From Planctomycetaceae bacterium (GTDB lineage Bacteria; Planctomycetota; Planctomycetia; Pirellulales; PALSA-1355): a DNA stretch of 34,008 nt. This document shows positions 4,820-26,125 of the stretch, one piece after another (the first letter of the stretch is position 1; each line of letters opens with the position of its first letter). The stretch is taken from NCBI GenBank assembly GCA_003153375.1, contig PLYM01000159.1, positions 1 to 34,008 of the forward strand. The letters are read 5' to 3'. The translations under genes and the position numbers were made by a program. A model generated the notes under the pieces. It did not search any database and was not told where the DNA came from. It saw only the letters and a list, made by a program, of their open reading frames with translations.

Positions 4820-4892
4820 TGCACGTTGCATCAAGCCTTGTTCGGCACGGCAGCCCCCGAACGCGACGCAACCCAATCTGTCGAGGCAACCC

Positions 4893-5576
4893 GTGGCACA
4901 CTGGCAAAATCGCGACGAGCCGGCCTGGCAAACCTTCCAGTTCAATCAGCCTTATGCCAAGGGCCTGAAGCGACTCAAGGAGGAGGTGCTGGCCAAGACC
5001 GACTTCGACCCGGCCACGCTCTGGCAATGGGGCACGATGCAGGCCATGGCCGTGATCGAGCTGCTCAAGACCTTCGAGCGGCTCTTCGGTCGACCGGGCC
5101 AGGAGGCAGCCCTCGAGGCTTTGCACCGCGTGGGCCTGGATGTCGGGCGACAGATACTCGCTGGCACGCAGAAGCCCGAAGGCATGAGCGAAGCCGAGTT
5201 CCTCAGCTTCTATGCCACGGTGATCAATCGCATCGCTTATGCTTCGCTCGAGGCCCCGAGAATCGACGGCCCGGACCAGGTGAGCTTCGACATTCTGTGG
5301 TGCCCCCATCAGGACCACTACCAGGCGTTCGATTGTCGCGTGCAGCGCTACTTCGTCGAAGGCATGATCGACGCCATGCGCGAGTTCGGCGACGAGCATG
5401 GGTTCGACGTCCGCTTCGACAGCACCATTCCCGCTGGCGCCCCCACCTGCCATTTCACGATCTGGCGCAGCTCAGCCACGGAAAACACCGATTGGCAGCG
5501 CTATACGAACTCAATCGAACGAAAGGCGCTCGAAATCGCCCAGCGCCCGCCGATTTCGGGCGAAACGAGCACGTAG
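4893..5576 (+). CDS. ATC hydrolase-like protein (L-2-amino-thiazoline-4-carboxylate hydrolase family)
   Basis: A 227-residue cytoplasmic protein without signal peptide or membrane segment. The C-terminal half has the layout I recall for the ATC_hydrolase family: a CP motif (WCPHQDHY, around 137-144), a further Cys in AFDCRV, a helix, then the terminal pattern IPAGAPTCHFTIW with a conserved Cys before the last strand. Characterised members open the thiazoline ring of ATC in L-cysteine synthesis, but most members are uncharacterised, so the reaction should not be transferred with confidence. The GTG start is supported by GAGG six bases upstream (4883-4886). It lies 73 bases after the TIM-barrel gene and 158 before the cytochrome protein. 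Confidence 0.65.
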   Translation: MAHWQNRDEPAWQTFQFNQPYAKGLKRLKEEVLAKTDFDPATLWQWGTMQAMAVIELLKTFERLFGRPGQEAALEALHRVGLDVGRQILAGTQKPEGMSEAEFLSFYATVINRIAYASLEAPRIDGPDQVSFDILWCPHQDHYQAFDCRVQRYFVEGMIDAMREFGDEHGFDVRFDSTIPAGAPTCHFTIWRSSATENTDWQRYTNSIERKALEIAQRPPISGETST

Positions 5577-5734
5577 CGTGCCGCGGACAGACGGCTTCGA
5601 CTGCTGGACGGCCTGTGGTTTCTGGACACGGGGCCGTCGCGGCAAATATGATGAACCTCTGGCGAGCGATCGGGGCGCGCGGCCCATTCCTTGCCAAGCC
5701 GCCCGCCCACCGAATTCCTGTCAGCTACGCAGCC

Positions 5735-8700: not shown

Positions 8701-8764
8701 GGCCGCTTGGACCTTAGTCGGCCGAACAATCTTGAACCTCGATGAGTTCGTCACTAAAGAATGA
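5735..8764 (+). CDS. PSCyt1/DUF1549/DUF1553 exported cytochrome-type protein
   Basis: A 1009-residue planctomycete-specific protein of unproven function. In order: a signal peptide (1-29); a PSCyt1 cytochrome-like domain with heme motif CYQCH (50-54) and the usual MPPPDS segment near 110; DUF1549/PSCyt2 (about 165-375) with a second CxxCH, CAQCH (339-343); a beta-rich middle domain (about 430-595); and DUF1553/PSD1 (about 700-985). The two CxxCH motifs suggest up to two covalent hemes outside the cytoplasm. The frame stays open far upstream, to 4826, overlapping the ATC-hydrolase-like gene. ATG 5735 is chosen because it gives a clean signal peptide; MM at 5648 and 5651 is the alternative. The DUF1501 partner follows after 49 bases, the typical arrangement. 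Confidence 0.92.
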
Positions 8765-8813
8765 AACGACTCCGCGCCAATGCCGAACTGGCCATCCAGA
8801 CCCCGGTGATCCG

Positions 8814-10253
8814 ATGAGATCTGAGGAAGAACACTTGCGACAGATCACACGGCGGCATTTCTACAGCCAATGCGGGGTTGGCCTGGGCAAGATTGCGCTA
8901 GCCTCGCTGCTCGGAGGCGATCTCGTCGCGCTCGCTTCAGCGGCCACGGCGACGCCTCCCAACCCGCTATTGCCCAAGCCCGCGCCTTTCGCTCCTAAAG
9001 CCAAACGGGTGATCTATCTGTTCATGGCCGGCGCCCCGAGCCAACTCGATCTGTTCGATTTCAAGCCGGCGCTGGTGAAGCACGACGGCCAGCCGATCCC
9101 GGCCGATATCGTCCGCGACCAGCGCTACGCCTTCATTCGCCGCGATGCCAAGCTTTTGGCCCCGCGGTTCAAATTCGCGCGGCATGGCCAGTGTGGCGCC
9201 GAATTGTCGGAGATGCTGCCCGGCCTGGCCAGTGTGGCCGACGAGGTGGCGATCATTCGCGCGATGCACACCGATCAGTTCAATCACGCGCCAGGCCAAT
9301 TGTTCATGAACACCGGCAGCTCGCTGCCCGGCCGGCCCTGTCTCGGTTCCTGGGTGTCCTATGGCATCGGCAGCGAATCGGAACAATTGCCGGCCTTTGT
9401 CGTGCTGCCCAGTGGCAGCAACAGTGCGGGCGTGGCCAACTGGTCGAGCGGTTTTCTGCCCACCACGTTTGCCGGCGTTCCGCTGCGATCCAAGGGCGAT
9501 CCGATTCTCAATGTTTCGAGTCCGCCGGGCGTCGACAACGCTACTCAGCGACAGACGATCGACCTGATCTCGCGGCTCAACACGCGGCGGCTTGAGATCG
9601 TGTCCGATCCGGAGATCGCCACCCGCATCGGCGCCTACGAAATGGCCTACCGCCTACAATCTTCGGCGCCGGAACTGATGAACATCGGCAACGAGAGCAA
9701 GGAGACGCTCGAACTCTATGGCGCCGAGCCCGGCAAGGCGTCGTTTGCCAACAACTGCCTGCTCGCCCGCCGCCTGGTTGAGCGCGGGGTGCGGTTCGTG
9801 AACATCTACCACGAAGCCTGGGATCACCACTCCGACGTCGAAGGGGGACTGCGCACGCAATGCGGGCTGACCGACAAGCCCTGCGCGGCGTTGATCAAGG
9901 ATCTTCGCCAGCGCGGCCTGCTGGATGACACGCTTGTGGTCTGGGGCGGCGAGTTTGGCCGCACGCCCATGGTCGAATCGAATGCCAGTCTCGGCCGCAA
10001 ACTTGGTCGCGATCATCATCCGCAGGCCTTCACCATGTGGCTTGCCGGCGGCGGCGTCAAAGGGGGCGTCAGCCTGGGCCAAACCGATGAGTTGGGCTTT
10101 CACACCGCCCAAGACCCCGTACACGTCCACGATCTACAAGCCACGATCCTGCACTTGCTGGGCATCGACCACAAACGCCTGACCTATAAATTCCAAGGGC
10201 GCGACTTCCGTCTGACCGACGTCAGCGGTAATGTGGTAAGTCAGTTGCTGTGA
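8814..10253 (+). CDS. DUF1501 family exported protein (partner of the cytochrome-type protein)
   Basis: A 479-residue DUF1501 protein, a family with an alkaline-phosphatase/sulfatase-like fold, mostly uncharacterised, almost always encoded beside DUF1549/DUF1553. Residues 11-35 resemble a Tat signal (TRRHF with the twin Arg at 13-14, then a Gly/Ala/Leu segment). Family hallmarks are visible: [14 protein letters not shown] near the N-terminus, [11 protein letters not shown] in the last third, and [14 protein letters not shown] followed by [13 protein letters not shown] at the end. The frame extends to GTG 8742 inside the upstream gene, but ATG 8814 places the twin-Arg motif near the N-terminus. 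No strong ribosome binding site is visible at either start, so translation may be coupled to the upstream gene. Confidence 0.9.
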
Positions 10254-10323
10254 GTCATGAACGCCGTGCCGAAGCACCGCGTGCTGGCGTCATTCAGTTA
10301 AGCGGCCCAGAGCCGCACGATCC

Positions 10324-11442
10324 ATGAAAATCACTCAAGTCGTCTGTCAGATCTTACGTGTTAAAAGCGTCGTGGCCAAAACGGCCAGCAGCCAGGACGC
10401 GGTCATCGTGCGTGTGCGGACCGACACCGGGCTGGAAGGGATCGGCGAGGCCGATGCTTCTCCCGAGGTGGTCAAGGCCATCATTGACGCGCCGTTCAGC
10501 CATAACATCGCCTGTGGATTGCGGCAGATTCTGCTGGGCGAAAACCCACTCGATACCGAACGACTGTGGCAGAAGATGTATCGCCGCACGATGTACTTTG
10601 GACGCACGTCCGTGGGTATCGCCGCCATGGCCGCGGTCGACATGGCCCTGTGGGACCTAAAGGGCAAACACTACAACGAGCCGATCCACCGGCTATTGGG
10701 CGGCAAGCAGCACGATCGGATCCTGGCCTATGCCTCGATTCTCTTCGGCCGCGACGGTCGTGAGACGGCTGACATCGCCCGTCGCTGGCGTGCCGCGGGC
10801 TATCGCGCCGTGAAGTGCGGCTGGGAACCCATGGGCCAGAACGAAACGGTCGACATTGCGCTGGTGCGCGGAGCCCGCGAGGGCATCGGACCGGGCACCC
10901 TGCTGATCGACGCCGGCTGCGTCTGGGATGCGCGCACGGCCCTGCGCCGGGCGCAAGCCTTTGCCGAGTTCAATATCGAATGGCTCGAAGAGCCCCTGCG
11001 AGAGGATGACATCGACGGCTACGTCTGGCTACGCGATCGCTCGCCCGTGCCGATCGCCGCGGGCGAAGGCGAATGCGGCCGAGAGTCGTTTCGTCCCTGG
11101 ATCGACCGTCACGCACTCGACGTCTATCAGGTGGATCTGTCGCGCTGCGGTTTTACGGATGCCGCGTATATTCGCGCCCGCGTCGAGGAGCGCAACGCCC
11201 GGCTGTGCAACCACTGTTACACCAGCCCCCTGACCGTGGCCGCCAGCCTGCACTGGCTGAGCACCTGTCGCGATGCCTTCATCTTCGAGGATTGCGTCGA
11301 AGATTCGCCGTTGCGGCACAACCTCACGAAGGAAAAGGTGCAGGCGGTCGACGGTTGGATCACCGTTCCCGATCGCCCAGGGCTTGGCGTCACACTCGAC
11401 GAAGATTTCGTGAAGGACCATCTCATTAGCGAGTCGACATGA
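10324..11442 (+). CDS. Enolase-superfamily enzyme (mandelate racemase/muconate lactonizing type)
   Basis: A 372-residue two-domain protein: an MR_MLE N-terminal capping domain (1-about 125) and the barrel (about 130-360). Metal ligands appear as D196 (LLIDAG), E222 (WLEEP) and E248 (AAGEGE). A His-Asp dyad is suggested by H297 (CNHCYTSP) and D271 (YQVDLSRCG). The usual KxK of the racemase subgroup is K164-C-G166 here, so the second Lys is lost. This argues for a dehydratase-type or other one-base reaction on a sugar acid rather than racemisation; that is inference. It is cytoplasmic, with no signal peptide. The ATG has no clear Shine-Dalgarno. It lies 70 bases after the DUF1501 gene and 82 before the MFS transporter. 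Confidence 0.88.
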   Translation: MKITQVVCQILRVKSVVAKTASSQDAVIVRVRTDTGLEGIGEADASPEVVKAIIDAPFSHNIACGLRQILLGENPLDTERLWQKMYRRTMYFGRTSVGIAAMAAVDMALWDLKGKHYNEPIHRLLGGKQHDRILAYASILFGRDGRETADIARRWRAAGYRAVKCGWEPMGQNETVDIALVRGAREGIGPGTLLIDAGCVWDARTALRRAQAFAEFNIEWLEEPLREDDIDGYVWLRDRSPVPIAAGEGECGRESFRPWIDRHALDVYQVDLSRCGFTDAAYIRARVEERNARLCNHCYTSPLTVAASLHWLSTCRDAFIFEDCVEDSPLRHNLTKEKVQAVDGWITVPDRPGLGVTLDEDFVKDHLISEST

Positions 11443-11524
11443 TCGCGCCGCCGTGGGGCCTGTTGAACGACTCGTATGATAGCGTCTTCATGGCTCGCCC
11501 CATTCCAACGCGAAAAGAGCCGCC

Positions 11525-12793
11525 GTGAGCGCGACGCGGGTTCGCTACGCCGTGCTGGCCGGTTTGTCGTTGGTGGCCGCGATCGCTTACTTCGAGCGGC
11601 AACTCATCGCTGTCGTGGCCACGCCGCTGCGGTCCGATCTGCAATTGGACGAAACTCAAATGGGCTCGGTGATGGCCAGCTTCTATTTGGGCTATGCGCT
11701 CTTTCAGATTCCCTCGGGCTGGCTGGCCGACCGCTGGGGCAGCCGCAAGTCGCTGAGCCTGTTCGCCGCGCTCTGGTCGCTGGCGGCCGCCGGGATGGCG
11801 CTGGCCACCGGGTACGCGAGCCTAACCCTGATGTGGTTCGTTGTGGGCAGCGCCCAGGCCGGGGTCTTTCCGTGTGCCACCAATTCGATTCGCCAGTGGA
11901 TTCCGCTGACGCGGCGCGCGTTCGCCAGTGGGATGCTGGCCAGCTTCATGTCACTCGGAGGCGCCTTCTCCGCCTACCTGGCTGGCAAACTGATCGGCTC
12001 GTTCGATTGGCGAGCCTTGTTCATACTGTTCGCGCTGCCTGGCGTGGCCTGGGCCATCAGCTTCTATTGGCTGTTTCGCGACAGCCCGGCCGAGCTTGCC
12101 GCGGTAAATGAGGCCGAGCGGGTGACCATTTCGGCTGGTGTGGTCGCGTCGCCCGAGCGAGACACACGGCCCGCGACGCCCTGGCGCGCGCTACTCACCA
12201 GCCGCTCGATGTGGGCGGTTTGCGGACAACAATTCTTTCGCGCGGCGGCTTACATCTTTTTCGCCACCTGGTTCACGACTTACCTGAAGGCCAGCCGTGG
12301 GCTGTCGTTGGAAGCGGCCAGCACGCTAACTAGCCTACCGCTGTTGGCCGTGGTCGCGGGTTCGCCCGTTGGTGGCGCCCTCTCCGATTGGCTGCTGGCC
12401 ACGACCGGAAGCCGCCGAGCAAGCCGGTGCCTCTTGTCGGCTACCAGCATGGCGTCGTGTGCCGCGCTCATTCTGGCCGCCTATTTTGTCGCCGACGCGC
12501 GCTGGGCGGTGCTGGTGATTAGCGGCGGGGCCTTTTGTGCGGCGGTCGGTGGCGTCAGCGCCTACACGATCACGATGGATCTCGGCGGCCAGCACGTCGC
12601 CACGGTGTTCAGCGTGATGAACATGTGCGGCAACATCGGCGCCGCTCTCTGTCCGCCGCTTGTCGGCTGGTTGGCGCAAACGACCGGCCGCTGGAATGAG
12701 ATTCTGCTGTTGTTCGCGGCGATCTATGCCGCCGCCGGGCTATGTTGGTTGCTGCTCGACCCCAGCCAACCGATCGTTCCGGCCGAGGAATGA
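11525..12793 (+). CDS. MFS transporter, ACS (organic/sugar acid) type
   Basis: A 422-residue membrane transporter with about twelve hydrophobic segments. The N-terminal helix has the anion:cation symporter pattern (IAYFERQLIAVV), and the loop between helices 2 and 3 carries the MFS signature GWLADRWGSRKS (about 66-77). WRALFILFALPG and FRDSPAEL after helix 6 are also typical of this subfamily. ACS carriers import hexuronates, galactonate, tartrate and similar anions with protons, which fits the sugar-acid-type enzyme encoded just upstream. The GTG start is weakly supported by AAAAGAG upstream. A TATGATAG element at 11475-11482 in the 82-base gap could be an internal promoter, but it lacks a -35 partner. 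Confidence 0.9.
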   Translation: MSATRVRYAVLAGLSLVAAIAYFERQLIAVVATPLRSDLQLDETQMGSVMASFYLGYALFQIPSGWLADRWGSRKSLSLFAALWSLAAAGMALATGYASLTLMWFVVGSAQAGVFPCATNSIRQWIPLTRRAFASGMLASFMSLGGAFSAYLAGKLIGSFDWRALFILFALPGVAWAISFYWLFRDSPAELAAVNEAERVTISAGVVASPERDTRPATPWRALLTSRSMWAVCGQQFFRAAAYIFFATWFTTYLKASRGLSLEAASTLTSLPLLAVVAGSPVGGALSDWLLATTGSRRASRCLLSATSMASCAALILAAYFVADARWAVLVISGGAFCAAVGGVSAYTITMDLGGQHVATVFSVMNMCGNIGAALCPPLVGWLAQTTGRWNEILLLFAAIYAAAGLCWLLLDPSQPIVPAEE

Positions 12794-12847
12794 TCTCGGG
12801 CCGGAAGATTTAGTACACTGTGGCGTACCACCGCAAGGAGATCCCGC

Positions 12848-14302
12848 ATGCCGCACGTCGACATTCCGCAATCGCACTGCAAGGGCGCGATCGCCCGTCG
12901 TGACATCACGCCGCCGGTCGGCATGTACCATCGCATGTGGGGCGCGGCGACACATGACCGCTCCACCGGCATTCACCGCCCGTTGTTGGCGACGGCGCTC
13001 GCTTTGCAATCTTCGCACAAGTCGGCAGGACACGGGACGCTCCAGGTCTTGGTCTCCCTCGATCACTGCCTGCTATGGACGGAGGAGATGGAAGCCCTGC
13101 GAAGTGCAGTCTGCCGCTCGGCGTGGATCGCGCCCGAGTCGCTGCACATTACCTTTTCGCACACCCACGCCGCCGGTCTGCTCGACCCGGCGCGGGCCGA
13201 CTTGCCAGGCGGCGATCTGATTGCGAGTTACTTGGAACTTGTCGTCCAGCGTGTGGCGTCCGCGGCGCGCGAAGCCATCGATGCGTTGCGGCCGGTGTGG
13301 ATTGTCTACGGCCTGGGGACGTGCGATTTGGCGGCTCATCGCGATTTCTGGGATGCTGAAAATCGGCTATTCGTTTGCGGCTTTGATCCGAGTGGAGTGG
13401 CCGACGATACGGTGCTGGTGGCGCGCATCACCGACGAGCGGTCGAAATGCGTGGCGACCGTCGTCAACTACGCCTGCCATCCGACGACGCTGGCCTGGGA
13501 CAACACGCTGGTGAGCCCCGATTACGTCGGGGCCCTGCGCGAAACCGTCGAGGCGGCAACCGGCGCGCCCTGCCTGTTCCTGCAAGGCGCCTCGGGCGAA
13601 TTAGGACCGCGTCACGGGTACGTGGGCGACATGTCGGTGGCCGATCGCAATGGTCGACAGCTTGCCTATGCCGCGCTGGCCGCACTCGAGCCGTTGCCCG
13701 CGCCGGGCGTGCGATACGAGTACACCGGACCTGTGGTTTCCGGCGCCACGATTGGCACCTGGGCCTATGCGCCGCTGTCGAAGGAGGAGCTGCATGGCCA
13801 ATCGAGCTGGCGTTGCGAGCACTTTACCGTCGACTTGCCTTATCGGGCCGACTTGCCGACGCGCGACGCGACCGAGGCCGAACGCGCCCGCTGGCAAGCC
13901 GCCGAAGAATCGGCCAATCGCGCCGGCGATCGCGAACAAGCCCGGGATTGCCGCGCCCAAATCGAGCGAATGAATCGGCAACTGGCCCGGCTGCGCTCGT
14001 TGCCCGAGGGCACGTCCGTGCCGCTGTCGGTCTCGCTGTGGCAGTTGGGCGGCGCCTTGTGGTTGATGCTCGAAGCGGAACATTACAGTCTGCTGCAAAG
14101 AGCGTTGCGCGAGCGCTTTCCGGACTACCCGATCGTGGTCGTCACGATGACCAACGGCTGGCGTCCCGGCTATGTGCCAACCGCCGAGACGTACGGCAAG
14201 GGAATCTATCAAGAATCGATCGCCGTGGTCGCTCCAGGCTCCCTGGAGCAGCTTATCGAGCAGATCGGCACACGGATTGCAGAGTGGCAGGCCGCAGGCT
14301 AG
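12848..14302 (+). CDS. Neutral/alkaline ceramidase-like hydrolase, no signal peptide
   Basis: A 484-residue protein of the alkaline non-lysosomal ceramidase N-terminal family. The start AIARRDITPPVG (14-25) is the family opening. Candidate zinc ligands are H105/H107 (SHTHAAG) and H211 (NYACHPTTL). FLQGASGELGPRHG (244-257) occupies the place of the nucleophile loop; S249 is the obvious candidate, in a motif that departs from the ceramidase form. A charged, probably helical segment follows at about 340-380. Characterised ceramidases are secreted; this one has no export signal and is probably cytoplasmic, so a different amide or ester substrate is likely. AAGGAG (12835-12840) lies seven bases before the ATG. 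It closes the catabolic run. Confidence 0.82.
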   Translation: MPHVDIPQSHCKGAIARRDITPPVGMYHRMWGAATHDRSTGIHRPLLATALALQSSHKSAGHGTLQVLVSLDHCLLWTEEMEALRSAVCRSAWIAPESLHITFSHTHAAGLLDPARADLPGGDLIASYLELVVQRVASAAREAIDALRPVWIVYGLGTCDLAAHRDFWDAENRLFVCGFDPSGVADDTVLVARITDERSKCVATVVNYACHPTTLAWDNTLVSPDYVGALRETVEAATGAPCLFLQGASGELGPRHGYVGDMSVADRNGRQLAYAALAALEPLPAPGVRYEYTGPVVSGATIGTWAYAPLSKEELHGQSSWRCEHFTVDLPYRADLPTRDATEAERARWQAAEESANRAGDREQARDCRAQIERMNRQLARLRSLPEGTSVPLSVSLWQLGGALWLMLEAEHYSLLQRALRERFPDYPIVVVTMTNGWRPGYVPTAETYGKGIYQESIAVVAPGSLEQLIEQIGTRIAEWQAAG

Positions 14303-14377
14303 AACTGCCCCTCCGAGGGACTGGCCGCGAGCAATCGGACCCATAACCCACCGAACAGCGCATTCTGGGAGAGCACC

Positions 14378-14836
14378 ATGGCTGAAAAGAAAGCCACGAC
14401 GAAGAAAGAATTGGTCGATGCCCTTAACGGGGATTTGGCCCGCGAATATCAGGCGATCATTGCCTACATCAACTACAGCCAGGTGCTCAAAGGGGCGGAG
14501 TACATGAACATCGCCAAGGAGTTGGAGAAGCACGCTGGCGAAGAACTGGCGCACGCATTGCAAATCGCCAAGCAGATCGACTACCTGGGCGGTATGCCGA
14601 CCGTCCAGCCCGATCCCGTAAAGACCTCGAACAAAGCCAAGGACATGCTCAAGTTCGACCTCGACAACGAGCTGCGCACCATCTCCCACTATCGCAACCG
14701 CATTCGCCAGGCCGAGTCGCTGGGCGAGTTTGCCCTCTGCGAAGTGTTGCGCGAGATCACGAAGCAAGAGCAGGAACACGCCATCGATCTGGCCACGGCT
14801 CTGGGCATCGAGGTGCCGCCGATCCCAGAAGTTTGA
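14378..14836 (+). CDS. Bacterioferritin-like iron storage protein, probably non-heme
   Basis: A 152-residue four-helix ferritin-like protein. The full diiron set is visible: E23 (REYQAI), E56 and H59 (EELAH), E98 (DNELR), E131 and H134 (EQEH). It should oxidise Fe(II) and store iron in the cytoplasm. The GGMPTVQP turn after helix B is bacterioferritin-like. The Met that binds heme in Escherichia coli bacterioferritin (next to the first ExxH glutamate) corresponds to L57 here, so heme binding is unlikely. A Lys-rich N-terminal extension (4-10) could contact DNA or acidic surfaces. GGAG lies six bases before the ATG. Iron storage beside putative heme proteins may be more than chance. Confidence 0.9.
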   Translation: MAEKKATTKKELVDALNGDLAREYQAIIAYINYSQVLKGAEYMNIAKELEKHAGEELAHALQIAKQIDYLGGMPTVQPDPVKTSNKAKDMLKFDLDNELRTISHYRNRIRQAESLGEFALCEVLREITKQEQEHAIDLATALGIEVPPIPEV

Positions 14837-14913
14837 ACAATGGGTCGAGGCGCGTCGCCCGAATCGCGGGCGCCAAAATGGGTTTTGGCAGCTCGGGCGT
14901 ACGCGCAGGCGAG

Positions 14914-14942
14914 TGGCAATCTGGGAACGGATCGGGTATCAT
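14914..14942 (+). promoter_or_regulatory. Possible promoter of the second DUF1549/DUF1501 operon
   Basis: TATCAT (14937-14942, followed by GG) is a good -10. TGGCAA (14914-14919), 17 bases upstream, matches -35 only in part. The 167-base gap after the ferritin gene and the absence of a ribosome binding site next to the ATG at 15004 leave room for a leader of about 55 bases. It is weak evidence. Confidence 0.28.
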
Positions 14943-15003
14943 GGATGCGACCTGAGCCCACCTGGTTTGACCCTCCCTGCACGGTGTTCCGAGGCGTTAT
15001 TGC

Positions 15004-17754
15004 ATGGGGCCTCCGATTCGCTCCGCGATTGCCGGCGGTTTAATGCTGCTGTCGTTGGCATGCTTGGCTGCGCGCGGTGACGAACCTTACGGCCGTGGGC
15101 AATTCGAAGCTGACAAGCGCGACCATTGGTCTTTCCAAACCGTGGTGCCGCCGGTGGTTCCCAGCGCCGACGATGCGGCGTGGGTTCGTAACCCAATTGA
15201 CGCCTTCGTATTGGCCGGCTTGCGCGAGGCCAAACTCAAGCCAGCCACGCCGGCCGATCGCGCGACCCTGTTGCGACGCGTTTACCTCGACCTGATCGGC
15301 TTGCCGCCGACCCCCGCGGAGGTCGACTCCTTTTTGGCCGATACGCGTCCGACGGCCTTTGCAGCGGTGGTCGACGACTTGCTCTCGCGGCCCCAGTATG
15401 GCGAGCGTTGGGCTCGGCACTGGCTGGACGTCGTGCGTTATGCCGAGACCAATGGCTATGAGCGCGACGGTCTGAAGCCGCAGGCCTGGCGCTATCGCGA
15501 TTGGGTCATCGCGGCCTTCAATGCCGATAAGCCGTACGATCAGTTTCTGATCGAGCAGTTGGCCGGCGACGAGATCCCGGGCTCGAATGAGAACTCGCAG
15601 ATCGGCGCCACGATGTTGCGGCTAGGGCCCTGGGACGACGAGCCGGCCGATCCGCTGGCCGACCGCTATGACCAGTTGGACGACATCGTGGCCACCACCT
15701 CGGCCACGTTCCTGGGGTTGACGCTGCGCTGCGCGCGGTGCCACGACCACAAGTTCGAGCCCTTTTCGCAGAAGGACTACACACGCTGGCTGACGGTCTT
15801 TTCGCCGCTCAAACGCCCGCAAAAAGATCGTTCGGACTTGGACCGCGACTTGGGTCCTTATCAGGACGTCATGGCCCATCAGCAATTGGTGAAACAGCTC
15901 GATGCGCGGATCGAAGGGGCCAAGGAGCAGGCGCGTTCGCTCGAATATCAGGTTTGCCAACGGGCTGTGGCCGAAGGACGGTTGCCGCTGGCTGTCCCCA
16001 AGGTCGTGCTCGCAGCCACGTCGCAGGCCGAGCCGCAGGCGTGGCGCTATGCCTTCGAGCCGCCCGCCAAGGCCGATTGGATCGAGGCTGATTTCGACGA
16101 CTCCGGCTGGAAGACGGGGCAGGGGGGATTTGGCACCGAGGGCACGCCGGGCCCCGTCGTCCGCACGGTGTGGAATACTCCCGAGATTTGGCTGCGGCGC
16201 GAGTTCACCTATGCCGAGCAGCCGTTTGCCGAGTTGCGTTTGTTGGTGGCGCACGACGACGACGTCGAGATCTATCTGAACGGAGTGCTGGCCGACAGCG
16301 CCGTGGGCTTTACGACCGAATATCGTGAGTTCCCCGTGTCGCCGGCCGCCCGCGCGGCGCTGCGGCCGGGCCGCAACGTGTTGGCGGTGCATTGTCGCCA
16401 GACGACCGGTGGCCAGGCGATCGACGTGGGCCTGATCGCCGCGCTCGAGCAGCCGGCCAATCAGGAAGTCGCCACGGCGATGAAGGACCTGCCGCCTGAC
16501 GCCTTGCAAGCGATCGCCGCCGACCCGGCCAAGCGCAGCGACAATCAACGCAAGTTGCTCGCCAAGCACGCCGCCGCCGTTCAATCACTTGCTCGGCAGT
16601 TAGCCACTGGCGAAGAGCGCAGCCGCTTTGAGGAATTTGAAAAGCAGCTCGCGGCGAGCAAGGCCAGCTATCCAGCGCCCATGCCCAAGGGCTATGTCTG
16701 GTATGAAGAGGGACCGACGGCCGCCGTGTCCTACGTGTTCCGACGCGGCGATCCACGGCAGCAGGGAGCCGCCGTCGATCCAGGCTTCCCGGCGATTCTG
16801 GTCGACGCCCCGCCCACTCCTCCTTCGCCCACCGAACACTCGACGGGTCGCCGTTTGCAACTGGCCCGCTGGCTCGCGCGGCCCGATCATCCGCTGACGG
16901 CGCGGGTGATGGTCAATCGCCTTTGGCAGCACCATTTTGGCGACGGCATCGTCGCGACCGAAAACGATTTCGGCGTGATGGGCGCGGCCCCGGCCAACCA
17001 GCCGTTGTTGGATTGGCTGGCCAGTGAGTTCGTCGCCCGCGGCTGGAGCATCAAGCAGATGCATCGGCTGATGCTGCTCTCGCAAACCTATCAAATGGCT
17101 TCGACGCCCGATCCAGTCGCCGAACGCGTCGATCCGACGGGTTCCTTGATGTGGCGATTCACGCCACGGCGCATCGAGGCCGAAGCCCTGCGCGATACGA
17201 TCCTGGCCGTCAGCGGCCAGTTGAATCCGCTTGCCGGCGGACCGGGGGTGTATCCGAAGATTTCGCGAGCCGTGCTCGAAACACAATCGCGTCCTGGCGA
17301 CGGCTGGCACACGTCCGATCCATTGCAGGCCGCTCGCCGCAGCGTCTACGTGTTTCTCAAGCGAACGTTGCTCGTGCCGGAGTTGGAAGTCTTGGATTTT
17401 CCTGGCACCGAGGAATCGTGCGAGCAACGCGTCGTGTCGACCGTGGCGCCGCAGGCATTGACCTTCCTGAATGGCGAGTTCATCCACGAGCAGGCGCAGG
17501 CGTTTGCCGAACGCCTGGCCCGGGAGGCCGGCCCCGATCCGGCCGCGCGCATCGAGCGGGCCTATCGCCTGGCGTTTTGCCGTGTGCCCAACGAGCGAGA
17601 GCGGGCGGCCGTGCTCGAATTCTTGGCCAGGAACAAGGCCCAAGTGACCGCCGACTCGCAAGGACAATTGTCGGACGCGGCGGCTGACCTCAAGGCCCTG
17701 GCGGCGTTCTGCCTGGTGCTGCTGAACACCAACGAACTGGCCTACGTGCAATGA
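15004..17754 (+). CDS. DUF1549/DUF1553 exported protein with beta-sandwich insertion, no PSCyt1 domain
   Basis: A 916-residue paralogue of the cytochrome-type protein upstream. After a signal peptide (1-25) it goes almost directly into DUF1549/PSCyt2 (about 60-275), which keeps one CxxCH, CARCH (243-247). The N-terminal PSCyt1 cytochrome domain is missing. Residues about 345-480 form an insertion resembling the beta-galactosidase jelly-roll/carbohydrate-binding fold (DFDDSGWKTGQGGFG, WLRREF, DDVEIYLNGV, NVLAVHC in order). DUF1553/PSD1 occupies about 612-905, with the ARWLA, VNRLWQHHFG and FVARGWSIKQMH motifs. The ATG lacks a visible ribosome binding site. The stop overlaps a potential ATG of the next gene (ATGA), so both are surely co-transcribed. 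Confidence 0.92.
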   Translation: MGPPIRSAIAGGLMLLSLACLAARGDEPYGRGQFEADKRDHWSFQTVVPPVVPSADDAAWVRNPIDAFVLAGLREAKLKPATPADRATLLRRVYLDLIGLPPTPAEVDSFLADTRPTAFAAVVDDLLSRPQYGERWARHWLDVVRYAETNGYERDGLKPQAWRYRDWVIAAFNADKPYDQFLIEQLAGDEIPGSNENSQIGATMLRLGPWDDEPADPLADRYDQLDDIVATTSATFLGLTLRCARCHDHKFEPFSQKDYTRWLTVFSPLKRPQKDRSDLDRDLGPYQDVMAHQQLVKQLDARIEGAKEQARSLEYQVCQRAVAEGRLPLAVPKVVLAATSQAEPQAWRYAFEPPAKADWIEADFDDSGWKTGQGGFGTEGTPGPVVRTVWNTPEIWLRREFTYAEQPFAELRLLVAHDDDVEIYLNGVLADSAVGFTTEYREFPVSPAARAALRPGRNVLAVHCRQTTGGQAIDVGLIAALEQPANQEVATAMKDLPPDALQAIAADPAKRSDNQRKLLAKHAAAVQSLARQLATGEERSRFEEFEKQLAASKASYPAPMPKGYVWYEEGPTAAVSYVFRRGDPRQQGAAVDPGFPAILVDAPPTPPSPTEHSTGRRLQLARWLARPDHPLTARVMVNRLWQHHFGDGIVATENDFGVMGAAPANQPLLDWLASEFVARGWSIKQMHRLMLLSQTYQMASTPDPVAERVDPTGSLMWRFTPRRIEAEALRDTILAVSGQLNPLAGGPGVYPKISRAVLETQSRPGDGWHTSDPLQAARRSVYVFLKRTLLVPELEVLDFPGTEESCEQRVVSTVAPQALTFLNGEFIHEQAQAFAERLAREAGPDPAARIERAYRLAFCRVPNERERAAVLEFLARNKAQVTADSQGQLSDAAADLKALAAFCLVLLNTNELAYVQ

Positions 17755-17789
17755 CCCAGCCGGCGAGGACGACTCGCCAGGAGTGTGCC

Positions 17790-19292
17790 GTGTCCGATAG
17801 CCGAAAACGCGAACCGCTGGCCAGCCGCGAGGCCATGCTGCCGCGATTGACGCCCTGTGGGCGCACGCGGCGCGAGTTTATCTGGCAAGCCGGTGGCGGA
17901 TTCATTGGCACGGCGCTCGCTTGGATGCTGGCTCAAGAGGGCTTTGGCGGTCGCGCGCTAGCGGCCGGATCGAAAGAGGCGTCGCTGATGACGCCCAAGC
18001 CGGCTCATTTTGCGCCCAAGGCCAAAAGCTGCATCTTCCTGTTTATGTATGGCGGACCGAGCCAGGTCGATTTGTTCGATCCCAAGCCCGAGTTGACCAA
18101 GCGTAACGGTCAGCCGATGCCCGATCTGGAAAACGATCCTCGCTTCGACGCCAAACGCACCAACGGCCGGCCGCTGTTGGGGACTTTATGGGATTTCAAG
18201 AAGTGCGGCCAGTCGGGGCTGGAAATCTCGACCCTGTTTCCCAAGCTGGGCGAACGGGCCGACGACCTGGCCATCATCCGCTCCTGCCATGCCGACAGCT
18301 TTGCCCACGGATCGGGGCTGTTGCAGATGAACACCGGCAGCCTGCGGCAGGGTTATCCGAGCCTTGGCTCCTGGGTCACTTATGGCTTGGGCACCGTCAA
18401 TCAGAACTTGCCCGGCTACGTGGTGCTGCTCGACCATCGTGGCGGCCCGATCGGCGGAGCGCCCAACTGGGGCGCCGGTTTCATGCCAGCCGGCCTGCAA
18501 GGAACCCAATTTCGCACCAGCGGCGACCCGATCATCGACCTCTCGCCCCGCGGCGGCGTCACTCGGGCCCAACAGCGGCAGCAACTCGACCTGCTCTCGC
18601 AACTCGGCGAGATGCACCGCCAGCAGTTGCCGCACGACACCGAGTTGGCGGCCCGGCTCGAAAGCTATGAGTTGGCGTTTCGCATGCAGCAACACGCGCC
18701 CGAAGCGGTTGACCTGGCCAGCGAAAGCCCGGCCACGCTCGAGCAGTATGGCTTGAACCATGCCACGACCGAAAAGTTCGGCCGCCGCTGCCTGATGGCT
18801 CGCCGGCTCGTTGAGCGGGGCGCGCGGTTCGTCCAAGTTTACTCGGGCGGCGGGCACTTCGACGAAAACTGGGACGCCCACCAGGGCATGAAAAAGAACC
18901 ACGAGCTGCACTGCGCCGAAACCGATCAGCCGATCGCCACGCTGCTGGCCGATTTGAAGGATCGCGGCCTGCTCGACGAAACCCTCGTTGTCTGGGGCGG
19001 CGAATTCGGCCGCACACCCACCAGCCAGGGCGACAACAAGGGACGCGACCACAACCCGCGCGGGTTCAGCATGTGGATGGCCGGCGGCGGCATCAGGGGC
19101 GGACAGGCCTATGGCGCGACCGACGAATTCGGCTATGCCGCGGTCGAAAAGCGGGTCCACGTCCACGATCTGCACGCCACGATTCTGCACCTGATGGGGC
19201 TGAATCACGAAGCCCTGACCTTCTTCCACGGTGGCCGCGAAATGCGACTCACCGACGTGGCCGGCAACGTGATCCACGATCTGATCGCCTAA
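17790..19292 (+). CDS. DUF1501 family Tat-exported protein, second copy
   Basis: A 500-residue DUF1501 protein paired with the preceding DUF1549/DUF1553 protein. A Tat-type signal (TRREFIWQAGGG, twin Arg at 27-28) is followed by a hydrophobic stretch. The hallmarks are present: [32 protein letters not shown], then DHNPRGFSMWMAGGG and HVHDLHATILHLMG. GTG 17790 is chosen because AGGAG (17779-17783) lies six bases upstream. ATG 17751, overlapping the previous stop as ATGA, is in frame and would add 13 residues without its own ribosome binding site. It is clearly homologous to the copy at 8814 but differs throughout, so the duplication is old. Confidence 0.9.
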   Translation: MSDSRKREPLASREAMLPRLTPCGRTRREFIWQAGGGFIGTALAWMLAQEGFGGRALAAGSKEASLMTPKPAHFAPKAKSCIFLFMYGGPSQVDLFDPKPELTKRNGQPMPDLENDPRFDAKRTNGRPLLGTLWDFKKCGQSGLEISTLFPKLGERADDLAIIRSCHADSFAHGSGLLQMNTGSLRQGYPSLGSWVTYGLGTVNQNLPGYVVLLDHRGGPIGGAPNWGAGFMPAGLQGTQFRTSGDPIIDLSPRGGVTRAQQRQQLDLLSQLGEMHRQQLPHDTELAARLESYELAFRMQQHAPEAVDLASESPATLEQYGLNHATTEKFGRRCLMARRLVERGARFVQVYSGGGHFDENWDAHQGMKKNHELHCAETDQPIATLLADLKDRGLLDETLVVWGGEFGRTPTSQGDNKGRDHNPRGFSMWMAGGGIRGGQAYGATDEFGYAAVEKRVHVHDLHATILHLMGLNHEALTFFHGGREMRLTDVAGNVIHDLIA

Positions 19293-21158: not shown

Positions 21159-22400
21159 CTATTGCTCGATGCGATAGAGGTGCGTCTTGCCGCGCAGATA
21201 GAGGGCCTTATCGTAGATGGCGGGCGAGGCCATGAAGCCGTCGTCGAGGCGGTTGGTGGCGACCAGTTTGTACTTGGGTTCGGCGGCGACAACGAACGTG
21301 ACACCGTCCTGGTTGCAGAAGTAAATCTTGCCGTCGGCACAGACGGGCGATGAGGAAAACTCGCCTTCGAGCCGCTGCTGCCAGACGGGCTTGCCGGTTT
21401 GAGCGCTCATGCACGTGGCCACGCCCGCGTCGCTGACCATGTACAGCCGCGGGCCGATCAACAACTGCGAGGAGCGTGTGGGTATCCCTTGGCTGGCTTT
21501 CCAATCGACGTTCGTATCGGTCAGGTCGCCGGTGCCGGTGGGACGCATGGCGAACATTTTGAATCCGCCAGCGGCGGTGTTGATATACAGCCGCCCGCCA
21601 CCAAACAGCGGCTTGGCCGAGGCGTTCATGCCTCCGTGCCGCACTCGCCAGATCTCTTCGCCCGTCAGCGGGTCGTAGGCGATCGTGGCGCCGGCGCTGG
21701 GATAGATCATCTCGGGCTTGCCGTTCACTTGGATGATCGTGGCCGTGCAGTAAGCCTTCTTGGCGTCGCCGTCCTCGGTGCCATAGTCGATATTGCGATC
21801 GCGCCGCCAGACGGTCTTGCCGGTTTCCTTGTCGAGAGCCACGACGTATTGCAGATCAAAGCCGTCGAAGGCCACGATGAACAAGTTCTTATAGAGAATC
21901 GGCGACGAGGCCGGGCCGCGAAAATGATTGCACGGAAGGTCCTGCCGCATCCAAAGCTTTTCGCCAGTCTTGGAGTCCAGGCAGGCCGTGCCGTGGGCCC
22001 CGAAGTGGACATAAACGCGGCCCTCCTCGACGACCGGCGTGGGGCTGGCATAGCTATTGAATGGGATGCAGTACTGTGGCTCGGCGATCTCGAACACCAG
22101 GATGTCGTGTACGATCTCGCCGCTCTGCCGGTCAACGCAGACCGCATAGAGCTGCTTGCCATCCTCGGGCGCCGTGGTCATCCAAATCTGGTCGCCCCAA
22201 ATGACCGGCGAGGACCAGCCCTTGCCGTGAATTGGCGTTTTCCAGACGACGTGCTCCTGCTCGCTCCAGGTCACGGGCAGTCCGGTGGCCGACGAGGTGC
22301 CGTCGCCATTGGGCCCGCGAAAACCGGGCCAGTTGTCAGCCGCCTCGGCCCCGCCTGCAACCACCAGCCACACCGCCGCCATCCAAGCCAAACCACGCAT
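21159..22400 (-). CDS. Secreted PQQ-like beta-propeller protein
   Basis: A 413-residue secreted beta-propeller of the PQQ-like repeat class common in planctomycetes. A clear signal peptide (MRGLAWMAAVWLVVAGGAEA) precedes WPGFRGPNGDG, the typical start of the mature domain. Repeated blade motifs follow (SSPVIWGDQIW, ASPTPVVEEGRVYV, KTGEKLW, DKETGKTVW, QTGKPVWQ). These proteins often lack the residues for a quinone dehydrogenase, and I see no catalytic signature, so it may be a binding or scaffold protein. An ATG five codons upstream (22415) is in frame; 22400 is chosen because it starts the signal peptide exactly and has GAGGG about eight bases upstream. It is monocistronic. Confidence 0.9.
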   Translation of the reverse strand: MRGLAWMAAVWLVVAGGAEAADNWPGFRGPNGDGTSSATGLPVTWSEQEHVVWKTPIHGKGWSSPVIWGDQIWMTTAPEDGKQLYAVCVDRQSGEIVHDILVFEIAEPQYCIPFNSYASPTPVVEEGRVYVHFGAHGTACLDSKTGEKLWMRQDLPCNHFRGPASSPILYKNLFIVAFDGFDLQYVVALDKETGKTVWRRDRNIDYGTEDGDAKKAYCTATIIQVNGKPEMIYPSAGATIAYDPLTGEEIWRVRHGGMNASAKPLFGGGRLYINTAAGGFKMFAMRPTGTGDLTDTNVDWKASQGIPTRSSQLLIGPRLYMVSDAGVATCMSAQTGKPVWQQRLEGEFSSSPVCADGKIYFCNQDGVTFVVAAEPKYKLVATNRLDDGFMASPAIYDKALYLRGKTHLYRIEQ

Positions 22401-22504
22401 GCCCCACGCCCTCATTCAATGAGAATTCAATCCCGTTTGTTCATCGACGATCGCTCGCGGGCCGTCGCTCCATGAACGCCGGTCCACCGCGCGACGCCGA
22501 AACC

Positions 22505-22515
22505 CTATTGTAACC
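22505..22515 (-). promoter_or_regulatory. Candidate -10 element of the PQQ-like gene
   Basis: On the minus strand this reads GGTTACAATAG, containing TACAAT, about 105 bases before the start codon. The same 11-mer occurs upstream of the NHL gene (26169-26179). No convincing -35 is seen, so this is a weak promoter call based on position and recurrence. Confidence 0.3.
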
Positions 22516-22564
22516 GACCCCAGGACGGGGCTCGAAGCATTTTTTCCCATCCCGCGTGCCGCGC

Positions 22565-22593
22565 TTGACAGCGTGCGCGCCGATTACTATGTT
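22565..22593 (+). promoter_or_regulatory. Promoter of the PadR operon
   Basis: TTGACA (22565-22570, a perfect -35) and TATGTT (22588-22593) are separated by 17 bases. The predicted start near 22600 gives a leader of about 34 bases before the GTG at 22634. The -10 is overlapped by a palindrome, as expected for a repressible promoter. Confidence 0.7.
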
Positions 22594-22603
22594 ACGCATA
22601 GTA
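22585..22603. promoter_or_regulatory. Palindromic operator, probable PadR binding site
   Basis: TACTATG (22585-22591), spacer TTACG, CATAGTA (22597-22603): a perfect 7-bp inverted repeat with 5-base spacer covering the -10 box. PadR repressors typically bind such dyads at their own promoter, so autorepression is the natural reading. It lies 31 bases before the padR-like start codon. Confidence 0.7.
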
Positions 22604-22633
22604 TGTGAGGCCATTACCTAGCGAGGTGTTGCC

Positions 22634-22984
22634 GTGCGAGTCGAACGCGAAATGATGCGAGGAGCCGGGCCGGTCGCGGTGCTCAAGCTGCTCGAAGGCG
22701 GAGCCAAGTACGGCTACGAGCTGGTCGAAACCCTGGCCCGCACGTCGAACGGTGTGTTGGATATGGGGCAATCGACACTCTATCCGTTGCTCTACAACCT
22801 CGAGGCCCAGGGGCTGGTCAAGGCCGAGTGGCGCGAGGACGGAGCGCCGCGGCCGCGCAAATATTACGCGCTCACAGGCAAGGGAAAAAAGCGACTGGCC
22901 CACGACGTGGCCCAATGGCAGGCCGTGGCCGGGGCCATGCGGGCGCTGGGTGTGTTGCAACCGGCGTTGGGCGGAACCGCTTGA
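22634..22984 (+). CDS. PadR family transcriptional regulator
   Basis: A 116-residue winged-helix regulator of the short PadR subfamily. The family pattern is clear: GAKYGYELVETL (helix 2 region), GQSTLYPLLYNLEAQGLV (recognition helix and start of the wing), then RKYYALTGKGKKRL. The C-terminal helix for dimerisation is short. The GTG start has GAGGTG five bases upstream. It probably represses its own operon through the dyad at 22585-22603 in response to an unknown signal. The next gene, 21 bases downstream, encodes a membrane protein with a HAAS-like segment, the usual partner of such PadR proteins. Confidence 0.92.
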   Translation: MRVEREMMRGAGPVAVLKLLEGGAKYGYELVETLARTSNGVLDMGQSTLYPLLYNLEAQGLVKAEWREDGAPRPRKYYALTGKGKKRLAHDVAQWQAVAGAMRALGVLQPALGGTA

Positions 22985-23005
22985 GAACGAGAGGCAGAAC
23001 AGATC

Positions 23006-24937
23006 ATGGCCGAGCTCTATGAATTCCAGCCGCCGGGCCGGTTTGCCCGCGTGCGCTATACGCCGCTTCGCGAGGCCTTACGGGGCGAGTGGACCGCGCG
23101 GCTCGATCCGCGTGCCGAGATCGCCGCCGCGGCGCTCCCCGCGCCCTTGCCCGACGTGATCTACACCGTCGTGCGACGCTGTCGCCTGTGGCGCCGCGAG
23201 CAGTTGGACGTGGCCCGCGAGCTGATCGCGCATTTTTCCGACGGGCTGGCCGCCGGGCGCTCGTCCGAGGCGTTGGCCCATGATTTTGGCTCGCCCCAGC
23301 AGGCGGCCCGGCTCATTCGCCGCGCCAAGCTGCGCGCTCGTCCGTTGGCCTGGAAGAGCTGGCGGGTGTTTTTGTCCTTTATCGCGGGCAGCCTGGTTGT
23401 CTATGCCTTGTGGAGCGCGCGATTCTATTGGGGACAGCCGCTGTTGGCCCACAACTACTGGAGCGAGATCAACGCCGCCCGGCGAGTTCCGCAACCCGAT
23501 CGCGCCTGGCCGATCTACCGCGACGCCTTGTTCAAGCTCGGCCGGAAAGATGCCCATTGGATGGATACCGATAAGATCGCTCGCGGTCCCGAGGGCAAGG
23601 ATTGGGCGAAAGCCGTCGCGGCCTTGGAGCGCCATCAAGACGCGCTGCGCATGGTACGCGAGGGGGCGAAGAAGACGGTGCTCGGGTATTACCTCGGCGA
23701 CCCGGATGACCACGTGGCCGCCAAGGCGGCCCACGGAGAGTGGCTGATTGGGGAGCAAATTGCCGAAGAGAATTCTGAATTGCTCTCGGCTTTACTGGAT
23801 GGTCCGCAGAGTAGCCGCAGCATTGCGCGATGGCTGGAGACGGACGCCCGGGTGGCGGCCTTCAAGGGCGATGGCGGCACGGTCCTCGCGGACCTGACGG
23901 CGGCGATCGGCGTGGCCGAGCAGCAGTTTGCGCCGCACGGGATGCTTGTCGAACAACTGGTCGGCATGGCCATCTTCAACGTGACCATGGAGAACCTTGG
24001 CCGCATTCTGGCCACGACGCCGGGCGTGCTGAGTGATGCCCAACTGCGCGACCTGGCCCATCGCATCGCGGCATTCCGCGGCGGCGCGATGCCGGTGGAT
24101 TTCAGCGGCGAGAGAATGTTGTTCGAAGATTGCCTGCAACGAGCGTATACGGACGACGGGCACGGCAACGGTCGAATGACTTGGGATGGCTTGCAATACC
24201 TGGACCATTTGGAAAGCTCTCCTTCGAACGGATTGTTAAGCGTCTGCCGTGCCGACCCGAAAGACCCAAGCGCGCGATTGGGGGCACGGCTGGTCAGTCC
24301 CGGTGTCGCGGTGGTCATTGGCAGTCGCGAGGAGAACTCGCAGTTCTACCGTTCGCTGATGGAGGATATGATCGCGCTGCACCAGGGAGATCCCTGGAAA
24401 TGGGACCGCAGCGCCATCGACGCTCACCAGCAGCGACTTCAGAACGGCATTCAAGGCCCAACCAACGGGCTGAAACATGTCTTCGTGGGGTTGCTGCTGC
24501 CGGCGATTGGCGCGGTTTACAACGCGGCGGAGCGGACCGCGCAAACGCGCGATGCGGCCGAAGCGGCGATCGCCTTGGAGATTTGGCATCGCCGTCACGG
24601 CACCTGGCCCGAGCGGCTCGAACAGCTTGTGCCCGATCTGTTGCCGGCCGTACCCGCTGATCGACTGGATGGCCAACCGCTGCACTATGTTGTGAGAGAC
24701 GGCCAGCCGGTGCTCTACAGCGTCGGACGCGACCGCAGGGACGATGGCGGCCGGCCAACGCCTTCGCCGAACGACGCGCTTCCAACCGACTTTGCGCCAC
24801 AGGGCGCCGAGATGGCAAAGCGCGAGGTCTCACCCGAGGGAAGCGGTGATTGGATTCTCTGGCCGCCCTTGCCCGAGGAATTGCCCGAAGAAGATGACGG
24901 CGATCCCGCGGTCACGACGGAGTTGCTCCCCGAGTAG
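23006..24937 (+). CDS. Membrane protein with HAAS-like N-terminus and large unknown domain
   Basis: A 643-residue protein. Residues about 58-105 form a helical segment like the HAAS domain that accompanies PadR regulators (RELIAHFSDGLAAGRSS then DFGSPQQAARLIRRAK). One membrane helix follows (about 119-140). The remaining 500 residues should be extracytoplasmic and match no enzyme I recognise. A part near 525-590 (AAIALEIWHRRHGTWPERLEQLVP, written here in pieces: AAIALEIWHRRHG, TWPERLEQLVP, LDGQPLHYVVRDGQPVLYSVG) resembles the C-terminal part of secreted pseudopilin-like planctomycete proteins. The tail is acidic. It is in one operon with padR. The ATG has only GAGAGG about 12 bases upstream. 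Confidence 0.75.
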   Translation: MAELYEFQPPGRFARVRYTPLREALRGEWTARLDPRAEIAAAALPAPLPDVIYTVVRRCRLWRREQLDVARELIAHFSDGLAAGRSSEALAHDFGSPQQAARLIRRAKLRARPLAWKSWRVFLSFIAGSLVVYALWSARFYWGQPLLAHNYWSEINAARRVPQPDRAWPIYRDALFKLGRKDAHWMDTDKIARGPEGKDWAKAVAALERHQDALRMVREGAKKTVLGYYLGDPDDHVAAKAAHGEWLIGEQIAEENSELLSALLDGPQSSRSIARWLETDARVAAFKGDGGTVLADLTAAIGVAEQQFAPHGMLVEQLVGMAIFNVTMENLGRILATTPGVLSDAQLRDLAHRIAAFRGGAMPVDFSGERMLFEDCLQRAYTDDGHGNGRMTWDGLQYLDHLESSPSNGLLSVCRADPKDPSARLGARLVSPGVAVVIGSREENSQFYRSLMEDMIALHQGDPWKWDRSAIDAHQQRLQNGIQGPTNGLKHVFVGLLLPAIGAVYNAAERTAQTRDAAEAAIALEIWHRRHGTWPERLEQLVPDLLPAVPADRLDGQPLHYVVRDGQPVLYSVGRDRRDDGGRPTPSPNDALPTDFAPQGAEMAKREVSPEGSGDWILWPPLPEELPEEDDGDPAVTTELLPE

Positions 24938-25003
24938 CCGATGGCGACAGCGTGCCGGCGCGCGAGGCGGTCAGCGACTTGTCCTTTGCAAGTACGGCGT
25001 CCC

Positions 25004-26125
25004 TTAGCGATGCACCCAGCGGACACGGTGGTTGTTGGTGTCGCCGATGAAAAAGCCGCCGTCGGGCGCCAAGCCGATGCCGTGCGGCCGGTCGACTTTG
25101 GCCGAGGTTGCCGGCGCCTTGTCGCCGGCAAAGCCGCGGGCCTGGGGCCCGCCGCCGGCGATCGTTTCGATCGATCCGGCAGCGGTGTCGAGCAGGCGAA
25201 CCGCCTGGTTTTCGGAATCGACCACATAGACCCAACCCATCGGCGTGGCGGCGATGCCTTTGGGACCGTTGAACAGGGCCAGCTTGAGCGAGCCGCCGTC
25301 GCCGCCATATCCGGCCCGGCCGCTGCCCGCCACGTGGCGGATGATCAGCGAATCGAGATCGAGCCGCCAGACGCTGTTCCCCTCCCGCAGGGCAATCCAC
25401 ATCGTGCGCCCCACGATGACCAGGGCGCGTGGGCCGAGGATCGGATTGCCGCTGGCAACCGCGCCATCGCGCGGCAACTCCTTGTTGCCGTCGCCCGCGA
25501 TCGAGTCGATCGTGCCGGCGCGCAGGTTGATGCGGCGAATGCGATGGTTGCCGATGTCGGCGACATATATGCAGCCGCGATCGTCGAGCGCGATGCTGTG
25601 GGGTTGTCGAAAGAGGGCTTCGCGCGCCGCACCTCCATCGCCGCCGAATCCCAGCGTCGGCGCGCCGGCCACGGTCGAGATCAGGCCCGTTCGAGCGTCG
25701 ACGCGGCGAATGAGATGATTCTGCATCTCGACGAAATACAGGTTCTTGTCGGCGTCGAAGCGAATTTCATAGGGCTCGTTCAACTGCGCCTGGGTCGCCG
25801 GTTGGCCATCTCCGGCATAGCCTTTGACGCCCGAACCCGCGACGCTCGTCACGATGCCGTGCTCGCGGTCGAGCCGTAGCACGCGATGCTGGCCGACGGA
25901 CGCAATGTACAACGCGCCATCGGGTCCCAATTCGACGCCGAACGGCTGATCGACCGGCACGGCCAAGGCCGCGCCTCCGCCCGGGGGCAGGTCGCCTGAG
26001 CGACCGTCACCAGCCACGGTCTCGATGACCAGCCGGTTGGTTGCGGCGGGCTCGGCGGCGGCGCCCCTGACAGAAGACGGAATCAGAACGCAAGCGGCAA
26101 GAACGAATCGCGTGAGTCGATGCAT
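25004..26125 (-). CDS. Secreted NHL-repeat beta-propeller protein
   Basis: A 373-residue secreted protein. The signal peptide is MHRLTRFVLAACVLIPSSV followed by small residues. The body is a series of NHL blades with repeating patterns: QPFGVELGPDGALYIAS, EPYEIRFDADKNLYFVE, QPHSIALDDRGCIYVAD, GPKGIAATPMGWVYVVD and PHGIGLAPDGGFFIGD, each followed by an HRV/HLI/HRI-type turn and VAG-GxxGYxGDG linkers. NHL propellers bind proteins or ligands; no catalytic residues are evident. The open frame extends 48 codons upstream, but ATG 26125 is chosen because it starts the signal peptide. The gene ends 66 bases from the convergent HAAS-protein gene and is divergent from the metallo-beta-lactamase gene. 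Confidence 0.9.
   Translation of the reverse strand: MHRLTRFVLAACVLIPSSVRGAAAEPAATNRLVIETVAGDGRSGDLPPGGGAALAVPVDQPFGVELGPDGALYIASVGQHRVLRLDREHGIVTSVAGSGVKGYAGDGQPATQAQLNEPYEIRFDADKNLYFVEMQNHLIRRVDARTGLISTVAGAPTLGFGGDGGAAREALFRQPHSIALDDRGCIYVADIGNHRIRRINLRAGTIDSIAGDGNKELPRDGAVASGNPILGPRALVIVGRTMWIALREGNSVWRLDLDSLIIRHVAGSGRAGYGGDGGSLKLALFNGPKGIAATPMGWVYVVDSENQAVRLLDTAAGSIETIAGGGPQARGFAGDKAPATSAKVDRPHGIGLAPDGGFFIGDTNNHRVRWVHR

Follow-up and report, generated by a model that had tools for sequence, protein, structure and literature searches.

The window, a 34,008-nucleotide stretch of a contig from a Planctomycetaceae bacterium, carries a two-gene operon that is a well-supported member of the HAAS-PadR systems, with an unusual outer part in its membrane protein and an unusually well conserved operator. 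A predicted PadR repressor is followed by a 643-residue protein in which a HAAS domain, a single membrane helix, a long helical region, and a GspG-like pseudopilin domain are joined in one chain (Table 1). The assignment was read from gene order, the HAAS and PadR families, a candidate operator overlapping the promoter, its conservation together with one PadR clade, and the predicted GspG-like fold, all at the level of sequence.

Table 1. Features of the padR operon, in coordinates of the window
Feature	Position	Strand	Basis
Sigma-70-like promoter TTGACA-17-TATGTT	22565..22593	+	consensus scan
Promoter boxes TTGACA and TATGTT, 17 nt spacer	22565-22570 and 22588-22593
Candidate PadR operator, dyad TACTATG-N5-CATAGTA (= TACT-N11-AGTA)	22585..22603	.	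conservation; core TATG-N5-CATA
padR, 116 aa winged-helix protein, probable repressor	22634..22984	+	PF03551; GTG start
Partner gene, HAAS - one membrane helix - helical region - GspG-like domain protein, 643 aa	23006..24937	+
HAAS domain (predicted), residues 48-110	23147..23335	+	profile, model, orthologue alignment
Membrane helix, residues 114-142	23345..23431	+	model helix, hydropathy
Extracytoplasmic (predicted) all-helical region, residues 151-497	23456..24496	+	model; without clear fold match
GspG-like pseudopilin domain (predicted), residues 501-627	24506..24886	+	profile, model

The padR operon and its promoter

Both reading frames of the predicted PadR operon were confirmed, and the first product matched PF03551 with 76.8 bits against a cut-off of 27. 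It contains the motifs YGYELVE and RPRKYYALTGKG, corresponding to the PadR-s2 motifs YGYE and G(P/R)RKYYx(L/I)TxxG with the first G of the second replaced by R (PMC3506622, cited here, like PMC5050560, PMC6624303, and PMC11237479, for the parts of its text that were available). The protein probably binds its own promoter and represses it, and most likely it represses its own operon only.

The TTGACA-17-TATGTT promoter and the perfect dyad overlapping it were both present as originally described. The promoter scored 10/12 against the sigma-70 consensus and was the sole sigma-70-like match in 22400-25100, where 0.4 were expected. The dyad reads TACTATGTTACGCATAGTA, both 7-base arms being perfect, and overlaps the promoter -10. 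With up to 3 mismatches allowed, 0.08 matches to the pattern were expected by chance in the window; a blind inverted-repeat search of the 250-base upstream region gave as good a result in 3 of 50 shuffles as in the window's own region. Judged from one sequence, the dyad was barely beyond chance and made a weak case, and it is by its conservation across genomes that it can be taken as more than chance. The older PadR motif ATGT-N8/10-ACAT (PMC3506622) does not agree with the spacing of the dyad. The suggested genome search for further copies was carried out: within 2 mismatches, no second copy was present in the own genome (6.7 Mb), where the operon thus appears to hold the only strong site.

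Elsewhere in the window, a T2SSE-like ATPase gene (1622-2956) lies 20 kb from the operon, and positions 4826-19292 are occupied by PSCyt1/PSCyt2/PSD1 and DUF1501 gene pairs typical of planctomycetes.

Conservation of the operator

Orthologous operons were gathered by a protein search of 57 related genomes. The dyad precedes PadR with 0-1 mismatch at seven loci with the N-terminal segment (the window, L003, L004, L005, L006, L007, and L009) and also at L039. When 392 genomes sampled from across the phylum were scanned for the pattern, the exact 21-base TACTATGN5CATAGTATG was recovered in nine of them, and a PadR of the same clade together with a relative of the partner was found at 9/9 of these loci. 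Where upstream DNA was present at loci of the order, PadR was preceded by the TATG-N5-CATA core in 13/13 cases, 10 of which matched the full dyad with at most one mismatch. A PadR survey gave 58 matches in the 57 relatives, 30 of which were turned into loci. Close PadR relatives had both the dyad upstream and the partner (8/8), whereas neither the TATG-N5-CATA core nor TACT-N11/12-AGTA occurred in the 250 bases upstream of the 24 other PadRs tested, namely the remaining 22 loci and two further PadRs of the own genome (L045 and L047).

TTGAC occurred no more than 40 nt upstream of the dyad core at 17 of 22 related loci, compared to 3.0% of random 40-nt pieces from the same loci. The -10 falls on the left dyad arm in loci of the window type and would fall on the right arm in the L039/L090-L093 type, since there the distance from TTGAC to the core is shorter.

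When sites were counted in 25 genomes with one mismatch allowed, 19 contained the dyad and 17 of these had a single site. Two were found in G605 and three in G104, for which the reversed-pattern control likewise gave three matches. Among the six genomes without a match, the upstream region was off the contig in G448, a contig break was present in G585, no PadR was found in G600, and the dyads of G569, G573, and G577 were more diverged. The extra dyad of G605 (L104:508-526, 1 mismatch) is located directly before an exported hydrolase-like ORF, possibly a second PadR target; a second, tandem dyad also stands before padR in this genome. In L005, L009, L039, L103, L106, and L109 the blind inverted-repeat search preferred other repeats, so the dyad would not have been picked from these six sequences singly.

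HAAS domain and its association with PadR

Profile matches and modelling indicate that the N-terminus of the partner is a HAAS domain, as the original prediction had suggested, and the system therefore appears to be of the HAAS-PadR kind proposed by Ravi et al. (2024) (PMC11237479). The window's own copy matched PF22564 over residues 64-102 with 19.0 bits (E 0.0018), below the curated cut-off of 27. Of 13 aligned family members, 7 were matched by the profile (best 6.2e-10) and equally many have the N-terminal segment; the cut-off was exceeded in 4 of 10 homologues scanned (L005, 39.7; L091, 34.1; L092, 30.3; L009, 28.2 bits). An AlphaFold2 model of the partner, built from 13 sequences (mean pLDDT 84.7), placed HAAS helices at residues 48-58, 63-82, and 87-94/97-110, the third being broken at GxP (G95-S-P97) within the sequence F94-G95-S96-P97. 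FG was present in all 14 aligned HAAS rows and GxP, with its proline, in only 9 of them. The single membrane helix was likewise recovered: Kyte-Doolittle analysis gave one clear candidate at 120-138 (mean 1.58; next best 489-507, 1.38). Since residues 100-118 include 7 K/R and 0 D/E, the HAAS side is probably cytoplasmic.

Doubled HAAS-like segments were seen in some members (L005, L032 gene B, L039, and L091). In L032, the partner gene is tandemly duplicated behind one padR (4556-6700 and 6728-8635), and the second copy carries the doubled segment.

From a survey of 246 genomes of the order, 30 loci were taken, 16 of them HAAS-bearing. PadR adjoined 14 of these 16; of the exceptions, L107 is cut by a contig end, and L108 has a homologous N-terminus with degenerate HAAS and no PadR in the flank fetched. 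The 14 others included one contig-edge half gene (L110), which was set aside; in the remaining 13 HAAS-less relatives, all away from contig edges, neither PadR nor the dyad (up to 3 mismatches) was found (0/13). HAAS, PadR, and operator thus travel together, and the rest of the partner protein exists also without all three. Identities of PadR and partner co-varied over 22 loci (Mantel r 0.50; 0/2000 permutations as high). In genus g47 (L180 and L181), the partner genes are broken by stops or frame changes, with padR and the dyad kept.

Outer part of the partner protein

The original prediction left 500 residues as unknown. For the helical region no clear fold match was obtained: the fold search with the whole partner model gave no match with E <0.001, and the VIA rows for this region (Z ~8) were other helical repeats and uninformative. 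At the C-terminus a GspG-like domain was recognised, and the outer part belongs to a widespread Pirellulales-type family, so that the 500 residues can be called unknown only in part. The C-terminal module is found repeatedly in the order: the protein query P0002 matched 40 of 57 related genomes, mostly via residues 490-590. Other families of the phylum likewise have the GspG-like module in full-length partners (L172, L173, L174, and L176), with part of it in L180. A scan of the genome contigs revealed no relative.

Profile comparison and modelling agree in giving the C-terminus the GspG pseudopilin fold. A C-terminal profile was built from 26 modules, two of 28 being dropped as the motif used did not find them. 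Aligned with planctomycete GspG by hhalign, it gave 95.7% probability and a score of 53.1; none of 40 column shuffles scored above 17.0, and the reversed control and the PadR alignment reached 11.6 and 11.3, respectively. One family member (G007:C246) lies above the T2SSG cut-off. The domain was modelled separately (pLDDT 83.0) and showed a long helix and strands at 560-564, 567-572, and 615-619. The six best VIA rows for this model were GspG/EpsG/PulG (Z 6.9-8.6), the top match being 3fu1_A (Z 8.6, rmsd 3.0, 95 aligned). GspG entries ranked first by VIA realignment only and without Foldseek significance, as plain Foldseek gave no E <1.7 and listed a type IV pilin second. Sequence searches against PDB gave nothing useful with the 643-residue protein (phmmer, best E 0.26), and a profile of 8 C-terminal modules searched likewise reached E 0.53; NCBIfam gave only weak matches. 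The domain contains the motif YSVGxDxxDDGG, and its DDGG loop is conserved. The D-rich loop of pseudopilins has a calcium role, and one calcium-bound PulG entry was among the VIA rows. The class III prepilin signal G-[FYAIL]-[TS]-[LMIV]-[LIVM]-E was absent throughout the partner.

Other PadR partners in the order

As we read the sequences, most of the remaining PadR genes in the order are paired with a protein whose N-terminus looks HAAS-like. Pfam HAAS support was obtained for 5/5 and 4/10 of the partners scanned; in the other 6 of these 10 (L133, L136, L138, L143, L151, and L152) no HAAS match was present at E 0.5. A second HAAS family linked to PadR, with HAAS, one membrane helix, and a secretin-like region in this order, is represented by five loci (L132:133-1410, L134:1877-2881, L135:1-1401, L139:1901-2689, and L142:166-1332). 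In L142, Secretin_N and Secretin were above Pfam cut-offs, and the other four appear to have STN/secretin-N-like sequence. In the PadR neighbours of L133, L136, L146, L147, L151, and L152, a single membrane helix is combined with an outer domain that weakly resembles CarboxypepD_reg; matches were below the curated cut-off, and L152 gave a weak DUF4198 match only. Further PadR partners of the order are small multi-spanning proteins.

These sets (L142, L146, L147, and others) share with the window operon the PadR neighbour, the HAAS-like N-terminus, the single membrane helix, and the large outer part. They differ in their outer domains, and their PadRs are no more than 42% identical to that of the window and lack the TACTATG-N5-CATAGTA dyad. 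The original contrast, in which small multi-spanning domains are the norm for HAAS proteins and a large outer part would mark a new kind of partner, was not upheld. Large outer partners are already on the list of Ravi et al. (PMC11237479), and single-helix HAAS proteins with secretin or CarboxypepD_reg-like parts recur in this order; because such proteins are common, the contrast fails in this phylum.

Proposed mechanism

We consider it reasonably likely that the operon is a self-contained HAAS-PadR signalling unit, in which PadR autorepression is lifted by the membrane partner upon an envelope signal. A PadR dimer would bind the dyad over the -10 and silence its own two-gene operon. The partner would be inserted in the membrane with HAAS in the cytoplasm and with the helical region and the GspG-like domain outside, where the outer part may act as the sensor. 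The envelope signal would alter the HAAS domain, which would contact PadR, as the proposal of Ravi et al. (PMC11237479) includes, and this contact would lift repression and yield more of the same membrane protein.

It is less probable, though still worth considering, that an LmrR-like PadR senses a drug or metabolite whose binding lifts repression, the membrane protein being the output (for example, envelope-protective) and HAAS serving only for feedback or as a tether. Direct drug binding is known from PadR-s2 proteins, LmrR among them (PMC3506622, PMC5050560), and no strong operator is present outside the operon itself; however, a HAAS-PadR link fits better than a ligand-only circuit because the dyad and PadR follow the HAAS-bearing members and not the HAAS-less ones. 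We regard it as improbable that the partner belongs to a large planctomycete family of envelope proteins with GspG-like tips, chiefly structural or enzymatic in role, PadR limiting a harmful dose without any signal passing. HAAS-less relatives are widespread without a PadR link, and excess of the Listeria HAAS protein Lmo0600 impairs growth in the cold (PMC6624303), but across families and classes of the phylum the HAAS part, the FG(xP) motif, and the operator have been retained, beyond the needs of plain dose control. Hardly credible is a dyad that serves another regulator and lies beside padR incidentally, as 9/9 phylum matches adjoin this PadR clade and 0/24 other PadRs carry the dyad.

A speculative and rather doubtful suggestion is that planctomycete HAAS-PadR circuits took T2SS pieces as sensors, a GspG-like head here and secretin domains in the sister operons, which would signal the condition of a secretion or pilus apparatus in the envelope without a kinase. 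The Psp response to misplaced secretins is a parallel. The case for T2SS monitoring is weakened, as no T2SSG match reached the cut-off in the own draft genome (96% complete; best E 0.75); a same-genus genome does have one.

It has been proposed that HAAS-PadR pairs offer an alternative to two-component systems that needs no kinase. The operon is compact and conserved between classes of the phylum, its operator is apparently unique, and its membrane protein has a single membrane helix and an outer domain that can be recognised; therefore, it offers a tractable case for HAAS-to-PadR signalling and for the PadR-s2 operator code. It also gives an instance of a pseudopilin fold within a protein that probably signals.

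Comparison with known systems

Like GspG/PulG/EpsG of the T2SS, the C-terminal domain appears to combine a long helix with a small beta-sheet and a YSxGxDGxDD-type loop. Unlike these proteins, the partner has no prepilin signal, and as the domain forms the C-terminus of a 643-residue protein, its incorporation into a pseudopilus is not expected.

The systems described by Ravi et al. likewise have a stand-alone PadR beside an N-terminal HAAS of three helices with a GxP kink, fused to membrane or sensor domains. Their partners include PspC, LiaI-LiaF, Toastrack, FtsX/MacB, FtsW/RodA, and small multi-TM domains, whereas here the partner is GspG-like (PMC11237479). The terms pilin, GspG, and planctomyc are absent from the main text of that paper, and no published description of a HAAS protein with a pseudopilin domain was found in a search that most subscription papers and preprints lay outside.

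Clostridioides difficile cdPadR1 binds TACT-N11/12-AGTA in vitro, including its own promoter in EMSA (PMC5050560). The window dyad has the same form, TACT-N11-AGTA, but its arms are extended to TACTATG/CATAGTA. The cdPadR1 site overlaps -35/-10, and about 200 sites are predicted in the genome of cdPadR1, compared to essentially one here (PMC5050560).

In the lltR-lmo0600-lmo0601 operon of Listeria the PadR gene also comes first and is followed by that of a DUF1700 membrane protein, and LltR represses its own operon strongly, ~100-150-fold (PMC6624303). The Listeria DUF1700 protein is multi-spanning, whereas one membrane helix and a GspG-like outer part are joined here in one chain (PMC6624303).
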